A DNA stretch of 64,000 nt. Source: Thermomonas sp. S9. Its GTDB lineage: Bacteria > Pseudomonadota > Gammaproteobacteria > Xanthomonadales > Xanthomonadaceae. The stretch spans positions 2,771,001-2,835,000 of the forward strand of contig NZ_JAJDFY010000001.1 of NCBI RefSeq assembly GCF_024704365.1, given 5' to 3'. How positions within the stretch are numbered: the first letter of the stretch is position 1; each line of letters starts with the position of its first letter. Positions 14,012-16,757 of the stretch are shown here, piece after piece. The notes beneath the pieces were generated by a model. The model saw nothing but the letters and a program-made list of their open reading frames with translations. It searched no databases and was not told where the DNA came from. The position numbers and the translations under genes are program-made.

Positions 14012-15435
<1,424 letters not shown>

Positions 15436-15441
15436 TCGTTA

Positions 15442-15587
15442 GGGAACCTCTGATCAACTCAGAGGTTCCCGCCGGCCATGGAGGGCCGGCCACGCATCAA
15501 TCACGCAAGTGATGGATGCGTGTGAGCCGAGTCCGGGCCTGTACCGGACTCGGCGTGGGCTGACAACGCCTGGATGGCGTTGTTCAG
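15442..15587. repeat. Array of five consecutive hairpins in the pilR-pilA gap
   Basis: Five palindromes follow almost without gaps: 15442-15470 (12-bp perfect stem GGGAACCTCTGA), 15471-15490 (7 bp GCCGGCC), 15491-15522 (8 bp CACGCATC plus inner ATCAC/GTGAT closing a GCAA tetraloop), 15526-15554 (11 bp GCCGAGTCCGG), and 15560-15587 (11 pairs with one bulge, CTGACAACGCC). The first could terminate pilR. The organisation resembles a compact mobile intergenic element (REP/MITE-like) or a structured RNA; it has no coding potential and no CRISPR-like periodicity. Confidence 0.75.
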
Positions 15588-15706
15588 ACCTTCCTTAGCG
15601 GGGGTCCCAGCCGATCCCGGAATGCCGACATTCACGCACCCGGCGTCTCACGTTTCGTGACGCTTCCGGCCGCATCGGCAGGAACTGACGCATCACGTCA
15701 ACAACT
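15588..15706. other. Non-coding stretch upstream of the pilin regulatory region
   Basis: Part of the 473-bp gap between pilR and the first pilin. No credible reading frame. A short hairpin TCACG/CGTGA (about 15647-15659) is present; otherwise I see nothing. Confidence 0.5.
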
Positions 15707-15719
15707 GACACAGAGTGTC
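15707..15719. promoter_or_regulatory. Candidate PilR binding site (inverted repeat)
   Basis: Perfect inverted repeat GACAC-AGA-GTGTC centred about 110 bases upstream of the predicted sigma-54 transcription start. GTGTC half-sites are reported for PilR in Pseudomonas; that this is the site here is inference. Confidence 0.55.
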
Positions 15720-15797
15720 GTAAACTTCACCCGCGCCCGCCCTGCGATTGCGTGACGGAGGTCGCAAATGCAGGCGCGCCGCGGGATTGACCGCTTT

Positions 15798-15908: not shown

Positions 15909-16262
15909 ATGAACAAGCAGCAAGGCTTCACCCTGATCGAACTGATGATCGTGGTCGCGATCATCGCCATCCTGGCCGCCATCGCGCTGCCGGCCTACAA
16001 CAACTACCGCATCCGCAGCGCCGAAGGCGCCTGCCAGGCCGAGGCCAAGGCCTACATGAACTCGGCCGTGGCGGCGGTCGTGTCGCAGTTCTCCAGCATC
16101 CCGTTGCCGCAGGCCAAGGCCTGCACCAGCCCGACCACCGCCCTCACCTCGGCTCAAGTCACCAGCAGCGCCGCCATCACCTTCGCGCCCAAGAGCCCGG
16201 GCGTGGCGTCGACCATCTGCTACGCCGATTCGGCCACCTGCTCGATGACCCCGTCGGTCTGA
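15909..16262 (+). CDS. pilA: Type IV major pilin, copy 1
   Basis: 117-residue prepilin. Leader MNKQQG, cleavage before Phe ([13 protein letters not shown]), Glu5 and the N-terminal hydrophobic helix that forms the fibre core are all present. The short globular domain (about 80 residues) carries four cysteines ([25 protein letters not shown]), compatible with two disulfides. PilD (31617-32480) would process it. Followed by a strong terminator, so it is probably a monocistronic, highly expressed gene driven by sigma-54/PilR. Which of the two copies makes the main fibre is not decidable here. Confidence 0.95.
15933..16016 (+). repeat. 84-bp direct repeat, copy 1 (pilin N-helix)
   Basis: Base-for-base identical to 16428-16511. 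It encodes the conserved pilin helix from LIELMIV to NYRIR. Perfect identity including third positions suggests recent duplication or gene conversion. Confidence 0.95.
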
Positions 16263-16400: not shown

Positions 16401-16757
16401 ATGCGCCGCGCAGCCGCCGGTTTCACGCTGATCGAACTGATGATCGTGGTCGCGATCATCGCCATCCTGGCCGCCATCGCGCTGCCGGCCTACAACAACT
16501 ACCGCATCCGCGCCGCCGAGGGTGCCTGCAATGCCGAAGCCAAGGCCTATATGAACCAGGCGGTGGCGGCGGTGATCGGGCAGTACTCCGGCTTCCCGGC
16601 GCCGGCCAACAAGGCCTGCGCCTCGATGACCGGCACCATCGACTCGGCTGCCGTCTCCAGTGGCGCCACCATCACCTTCGCGCCACGCGCGCCGGGCAGC
16701 GCCTCGACCTACTGCAAGGCCGACACCACCAACTGCTCGCTGACACCGTCGGTGTGA
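16401..16757 (+). CDS. pilA: Type IV major pilin, copy 2
   Basis: 118-residue prepilin with leader MRRAAAG, cleavage before FTLIEL, Glu5, and four cysteines at positions matching copy 1 ([25 protein letters not shown]). The C-terminus TPSV is shared. The helix region is identical to copy 1 at DNA level while the surface part differs (for example [11 protein letters not shown]-type versus [11 protein letters not shown]-type), as expected for antigenic or functional divergence. It has its own sigma-54 promoter. A glycan cluster starts 70 bases after its stop. Confidence 0.94.
16428..16511 (+). repeat. 84-bp direct repeat, copy 2 (pilin N-helix)
   Basis: Identical to 15933-16016; see that entry. 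Confidence 0.95.

Follow-up and report, generated by a model that had tools for sequence, protein, structure and literature searches.

The five hairpins between pilR and pilA of Thermomonas sp. S9 belong, at what we judge somewhat better than an even chance, to a transposase-dependent MITE that carries a candidate CsrA/RsmA-binding RNA module. Sequence comparison established that the element was inserted in many copies at YTAR sites with target duplication, that it shared an end with an IS5-family element, that its fold covaried, and that its ANGGAN loops were strand-specific. The window, i.e., the whole stretch of DNA that was analyzed, was 64,000 nucleotides long.

The element (15443-15594, 152 bp, + strand) was located between pilR (14107-15435) and pilA (15909-16262), where five perfect or near-perfect hairpins with spacers of 0-3 bases lay between the pilR stop codon at 15435 and pilA at 15909. 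The features were the following:

15439-15442, no strand: left target duplication TTAG (YTAR type), from the flanked alignment of copies
15442-15470, + strand: hairpin 1 (H1), 12 bp, the left end and then an inverted copy of the left end
15443-15458, + strand: left terminal inverted repeat GGAACCTCTGATCAAC, from the flanked alignment and end-pattern matches
15471-15490, + strand: hairpin 2 (H2), 7 bp, hexaloop ATGGAG at 15478-15483, family consensus C-ANGGAN-G
15491-15522, + strand: hairpin 3 (H3), 8+5 bp, GCAA tetraloop at 15505-15508, GNRA-like in many relatives
15526-15554, + strand: hairpin 4 (H4), 11 bp, loop GCCTGTA at 15537-15543
15557-15590, + strand: hairpin 5 (H5), about 12 pairs with one bulge and one mismatch, loop TGGAT at 15571-15575, family loop A(N)GGAN
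15579-15594, - strand: right terminal inverted repeat GGAAGGTCTGAACAAC, the same 16 bp as in the ends of this genome's IS5-family element
15595-15598, no strand: right target duplication TTAG, from the flanked alignment of copies

All five adjacent hairpins reported in the initial annotation were found where it had placed them, with successive spacers of 0, 0, 3 and 2 bases (at most five had been claimed) and the one GCAA tetraloop closing H3. The span it had given, 15442-15587, stopped before the right end, as the unit is 15443-15594 with TTAG on each side. The RNA folding energy of 15442-15590 was −108.4 kcal/mol, compared with −61.2 ± 4.2 kcal/mol in 200 shuffles (z −11.3); the real strand was thus 47 kcal/mol below the shuffle mean, and none of the 200 shuffles folded as low. 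With DNA folding parameters, the same stretch gave a z of −12.3. As a separate observation made by eye, the first and last bases of the H4 loop (15537-15543) were mostly G...A or A...G in relatives from the order, resembling a loop closed by a purine-purine pair.

Copies in the own genome were searched with a 171-bp query, which yielded 12 near-full copies (93-100% identity) and two with internal deletions. In the flanked alignment, most of them had the ends GGAACCTCTGATCAAC and GGAAGGTCTGAACAAC (the latter in inverted orientation) and were flanked by a 4-bp duplication that was perfect in 11 of 13 own copies and of the YTAR type in 10 of these. Perfect duplications were found in 22 of 83 Thermomonas copies against 4.8 expected with shuffled partners, and few survived in genomes with more diverged copies (4/21 in G006 and 1/23 in G021). 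The own copy at C1:2170914 was matched in the relative G008 by an exact empty site, where CTAG stands once; this was the one exact case among eight aligned empty-site comparisons, the rest being diverged at the 4-bp site. Another own copy, L010, had an orthologous copy in G008 (L194).

The end pattern was also carried by a 1160-bp insertion sequence in the own genome (C1:2327285-2328444), which has TTAG on both sides. Its 326-aa transposase belongs to the IS5 family (NF033581, 357 bits, cut-off 140) and was 99.4% identical to three copies in G007. Both ends of this insertion sequence were located, and the element matched them at 16/16 positions on the right and 13/16 on the left. Bacterial MITEs are usually viewed as deletion remains of insertion sequences. 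The element resembles IS5-family insertion sequences and the MITEs derived from them in its ends, YTAR duplication and partner transposase; it differs in that its interior did not arise simply by deletion from the 1160-bp insertion sequence. Origin by deletion from the 1160-bp element was ruled out, the match being limited to 16-21 bp at the ends. The 152-bp element is short, dispersed in many copies and without a transposase gene, which it is too short to encode; terminal repeats shared with an insertion sequence and the YTAR duplication complete the features expected of an IS5-type MITE. Mobility is thus well supported by the sequences, and mobilization in trans by an IS5-family transposase would account for it. 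No match was obtained in plasmids (three query copies) or phages (one query copy). Two further sequences were noted in the own genome (G000): a second IS5-like element at G000:C1:632276-633502 with the ends GGAAGGTCTGCAAAA and GGAACCTCTGCACTA, and a lone terminal repeat with no partner at G000:C1:1941409-1941427.

The initial annotation had offered a REPIN/MITE-like repeat as one reading, with many copies as its check. The element was multi-copy in its own genome and in relatives, and not a single-copy, non-conserved sequence; the MITE part was borne out by the copies, terminal repeats, YTAR duplications, empty site and IS5-family element with a matching end. The REPIN part found no support: both the ends and the target duplications are of the kind seen with a DDE-type insertion sequence. 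REP/REPIN sequences (RAYT) are likewise short, palindromic and multi-copy, but they have a GTAG/CGTC tag at the stem foot and no target duplication, and this tag was absent from the element.

Relatives were searched with a model built from 23 copies (R1) and a core model of H2-H5 built from 44 sequences (R2). Among the matches listed (some candidates per genome were scored), R1 at E ≤ 1e-3 detected the element in 16 of 25 Thermomonas genomes and, at E ≤ 1e-6, in 68 of the 299 sampled from the order (34/85 genera), and R2 at E ≤ 1e-5 in 43 of 369 genomes of the class (35/272 genera) and 44 of 398 of the phylum (21/213 genera), with 32 of these 44 in family f217, outside the class; the E-values of these home-made models are rough, and the three samples (order, class and phylum) share some genomes, with the own genome being part of them. 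Plain BLAST gave matches in 16 of 60 relatives. Several copies per genome were common, and tandem copies occurred. In two loci (L306 and L331, in genomes G344 and G481), the core was seen in head-to-tail arrays. The R1 matches listed numbered 45 in G006 and 28 in G008, which are not exact copy numbers, since palindromic copies can score on the reverse strand too. A profile search gave no DDE_Tnp_1 match in either genome, so copies persist where the partner transposase was not found.

The ends of the element changed across this range. In family f12, within the order, ten of the 34 copies shown ended, with decay, in CTSAGAGSTTGTGAA and not in GGAASSTCTGAWCAA. Three copies (two from f12, one from f11) likewise had CTAGCASGYTGTTGARAA in place of GGAASSTCTGAWCAA, and ends of the CTAGCASGYTGTTGARAA kind were also met outside the order, in at least L290, L300 and L301. 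Types other than the own one, which were identified by eye and in many copies were decayed, include CTSAGAG... and CTAGCAGG... ends, so that, judged by eye, the same core lies between at least three kinds of ends. With new ends, H1 and the foot of H5 changed and H2, H3 and the H5 loop stayed; H4 kept its position, its loop being altered in many copies outside the order. A core that recurs with three or more end types does not owe its conservation to a single transposase, and on this comparison the conserved unit is best taken as a module and not as the substrate of one transposase.

The fold of the core is maintained, its stems undergoing compensatory change with strong covariation. In the 23 copies, two-sided changes were seen in 25 of 56 pairs (12.6 when shuffled). 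Across 44 order-wide cores, compensated changes affected 34 of 42 pairs (23.3 when shuffled), and the covariation score was 0.379, compared with 0.155 when shuffled and at most 0.117 for slid structures; the rows are mutually related, and kinship is removed by the slid control, not by the shuffle control. For alignment A4, seven decayed copies were removed by hand (L152, L177, L180, L181, L182, L184, and L187), representatives below 86% identity numbered 47, and 44 were aligned, leaving out L042, L183 and L257. Five weak or antisense rows were removed from alignment A2, four rows from A3 and two from A5. For the structured RNA proposed in the initial annotation, the covariation is strong evidence of a maintained fold, but it fits RNA and folded or single-stranded DNA alike.

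Among 100 copies (37 effective), the most constant unpaired bases included the A, G, G and A of the H2 loop (0.91, 0.95, 0.95 and 0.98), next to freer positions (T 0.49 and T 0.62), and the GGA of the H5 loop (0.93, 0.96 and 0.94). They also included the C of the H4 loop (0.93), a T adjoining the H3 stem (0.92) and, in the H3 loop, the G (0.91). The H2 loop read ANGGAN in 40 of 44 selected cores; the A4 selection favors intact loops (the omitted L257 lacks ANGGAN), and adding the omitted rows gave 42/47. When 88 loci were chosen by BLAST or model score and not by loop, ANGGA was present in H2 of 80 and GGA in H5 of 81. Among 50 copies from the class and phylum searches, 42 had ANGGAN in H2 (40/46 counting one per locus), 19 had ACARGGANGU in H2, and 39 had GGA in H5 (35/46 counting one per locus). 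An automatic longest-stem search, which fails where the stem has mismatches, gave H5 GGA in 31 of 44. Some relatives had the full C-ANGGAN-G in H5; the loop of the window's own H5, TGGAT, lacks the leading A. In 94 cores, ANGGA was counted 165 times on the element strand and 16 times on the opposite one, and 135 of the 165 fell in the H2 and H5 deciles.

GGA in hairpin loops, the ANGGAN consensus and more than one site are features of CsrA/RsmA-sequestering RNAs, and all were present in the element family; the H2 and H5 loops are therefore treated here as candidate CsrA/RsmA sites. In the parts of the source consulted, the CsrA SELEX consensus is RUACARGGAUGU, mostly in six-base loops, and RsmE targets have an ANGGAN hexaloop (PMC7652899). 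The H2 loop is close to both the SELEX core and the RsmE hexaloop. The same source, as far as consulted, describes the SELEX hairpins as having mostly ≤4 contiguous pairs and states that very stable structure may hinder CsrA; the H2 of the element differs, with seven GC-rich pairs, and is more stable than most of the ligands (PMC7652899). The own genome has csrA. In genomes picked by hand from the class and phylum search lists, csrA was found in 46 of 47 that bear the element, the one exception being a 75% complete genome, and also in 25 of 29 that are element-free; because csrA is nearly universal, this co-occurrence, which might have counted against the CsrA reading, is weak evidence for it.

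Strand-specific constraint was less clear in the decay of inserted copies. A structure-fitted alignment gave 213 G-U and 98 A-C events (124:64 weighted), an excess that sequence-only alignments within four genomes did not clearly reproduce: distinct events numbered 66 G-U and 59 A-C, and counting repeated copies gave 121 and 84, with the excess mainly from G006 and G008. Wobble pairs were thus rejected as strand evidence, and since G-U was not clearly above A-C, post-insertion decay shows no clear RNA-strand constraint. Loops were intact about equally often in antisense copies (23 and 23 of 26) and in sense copies (19 and 20 of 20). The orthologous pair L010/L194 evolved like its flanks (142/154 identical), with no extra conservation. 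The identity of the pairs L187/L182 and L017/L190 is uninformative on constraint because their flanks are identical too (97-100%). These pairs lay in stretches of about 2 kb that were 97-100% identical in genomes differing by 9-12% at pilR; the stretches reflect recent exchange between species. There was no sign in these comparisons of hosts preserving individual inserted copies, and constraint seems to be exerted on the elements as a spreading lineage. This would be expected of a module that benefits the element, or renders it harmless, more than of a fixed host regulator.

These data bear on the strongest rival explanation, an ordinary MITE with a palindromic interior in which CsrA is uninvolved, the loops survive as a relic or serve as a DNA site, and the stems are kept by DNA-level processes. 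The processes meant are palindrome-perfecting template switching, cruciforms, or folded DNA taking part in transposition; we consider the rival, with these processes, unlikely but a serious contender. It agrees with the mobility evidence, with unbiased orientation and decay that is not clearly strand-specific, and with terminal hairpins H1 and H5 that consist of ends paired with their own inverted copies. It is weakened by the loops: ANGGAN stays while stems, and even ends, are replaced, also outside the order, ANGGA is confined largely to one strand, and the two N positions vary, and DNA-level upkeep of palindromes predicts neither loop constancy nor a strand-specific motif.

Placement was analyzed for 89 copies, 83 from Thermomonas and six from other genera, with neighboring genes taken from a home-made codon-usage caller that left at least one neighbor uncalled in 14 of the 89. 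The gene pairs around the element were ++ in 20, -- in 26, +- in 22 and -+ in seven copies, with the remaining 14 having an uncalled neighbor, i.e., the element was mainly intergenic and seldom in divergent gaps. Twenty of the 89 copies shared over 40 bp with a predicted ORF, three of them lying wholly inside one. No orientation bias to neighbor genes was found in tandem gaps (20 sense, 26 antisense). The stop codon of a neighbor formed part of the target site in 20 of 88 loci. A terminator, an insulator or a 3'-end mRNA stabilizer tolerated behind stop codons would suit this last count, the 22 convergent against seven divergent gaps, and the very stable hairpins, but we regard it as improbable. 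Target choice may account for the preference for stop codons, because YTAR contains TAA/TAG and is itself rare in this GC-rich DNA (30 YTAR sites in the 64-kb window); in addition, no U-run follows H5 in the window sequence, and the function would not need loop conservation.

A cis-regulatory RNA of the pilR-pilA locus has position alone in its favor and is very improbable, being largely refuted on comparative grounds by the lack of the element at the pilR loci of all 22 readable relatives and by copies beside other genes. Of 23 Thermomonas relatives, 22 had a readable pilR end; in all 22 the element was absent from the 330 bases following it, and a model search of pilR loci (about 2.2-3.6 kb) in such relatives found none; the pilR-pilA gap among relatives was too diverged for base-by-base alignment. 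The element is thus not specific to pilin genes, the effect on pilin expression suggested in the initial annotation found no support, and the pilR-pilA copy is, on this evidence, a lineage-specific insertion. Several other features of these loci were observed. Two tandem pilin genes (15909-16262 and 16401-16757) have nearly the same first part, and between them is a GC-rich hairpin with T residues after it (ACCCCGCCTTTCGGCGGGGTTTCTTT). Upstream of pilA, 15680-15722 contains repeated TGACGCA/GTCA half-sites, also present in several other Thermomonas genomes, which precede a sigma-54-like TTGGCACG...TGCG and which we take to be candidate PilR sites. Downstream of pilR in L234 and L241 (G019 and G006), another, REP-resembling repeat family was found (GTAGGAGCGCACC...GGGGTGCGA-like).

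Under the preferred reading of a MITE with a candidate CsrA/RsmA-binding module, an IS5-family transposase would recognize the element ends and insert the non-autonomous MITE at YTAR, at times on a stop codon. The interior would be an old, separately evolving structured module, whose GGA-loop strand would present two CsrA/RsmA-type hairpins (H2 and H5) flanking H3 and H4. Read-through from a neighbor gene could place the element in a 3' UTR or release it as a small RNA, which may bind a CsrA/RsmA dimer, the many copies acting as a dispersed sink. Mobilization in trans, transcription from neighbors, binding and the sink effect are the parts of this scheme that we infer from sequence. A broader form of it is put forward tentatively, at well below even chance: the element may be a phylum-wide, transposase-agnostic, mobile two-site CsrA/RsmA RNA, packaged in several insertion-sequence ends and sown near gene ends, whose copy load would tune free CsrA and wire new 3' UTRs into Csr/Rsm.

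Known systems share parts of this picture. QMITE1 and QMITE2 of Coxiella burnetii are also gammaproteobacterial MITEs with strongly folding transcripts, some of them sources of sRNAs (PMC5896051, PMC10969869). QMITE2 measures about 190 bp, its predicted energy lies near −113 kcal/mol, and it differs in its 7-9 bp duplications and 23-29 bp ends; CsrA loops or a wider family are absent from the portions of these descriptions consulted, the comparison being by description only (PMC5896051, PMC10969869). RsmU and other RsmA/CsrA-sequestering sRNAs have GGA hairpin loops like the element, and RsmU, an RsmA-binding RNA from a Xanthomonas 3' UTR, shows that such 3'-UTR RNAs exist in this group of bacteria; this origin resembles the landing places of some element copies (PMC7694677, in part). 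RsmU is reported there, in the portion consulted, as Xanthomonas-restricted and not as mobile, whereas the element is mobile and multi-copy and has two sites (PMC7694677).

No Rfam 15 family exceeded its threshold on the element copies scanned. The gyrA RNA (RF01740) matched 15520-15603 of the window (H4-H5) weakly, at 30.5 bits against a gathering threshold of 45, and recurred over H4-H5 in four of 14 further loci at ≤37.1 bits; it gave no match in 16 loci from outside the order, and its consensus, unlike the H5 of the element, has no GGA in the corresponding loop. Rfam membership was ruled out on these scores and on those of naRNA4 (23 against 59.5 bits) and Ms1 (13.2 against 162 bits). In the open-access literature, no paper was recognized as describing the element family or linking a MITE to CsrA.

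In the interior of the element, structure and loop code are conserved in their own right, and genomes whose ends differ have them in common. Even with CsrA set aside, this is a broad, covarying five-hairpin mobile family, with no over-threshold Rfam 15 family on the copies scanned. If CsrA/RsmA does bind, a global regulator would be receiving binding sites directly from mobile elements, and it would become testable how RsmU-like 3'-UTR sponges arose.
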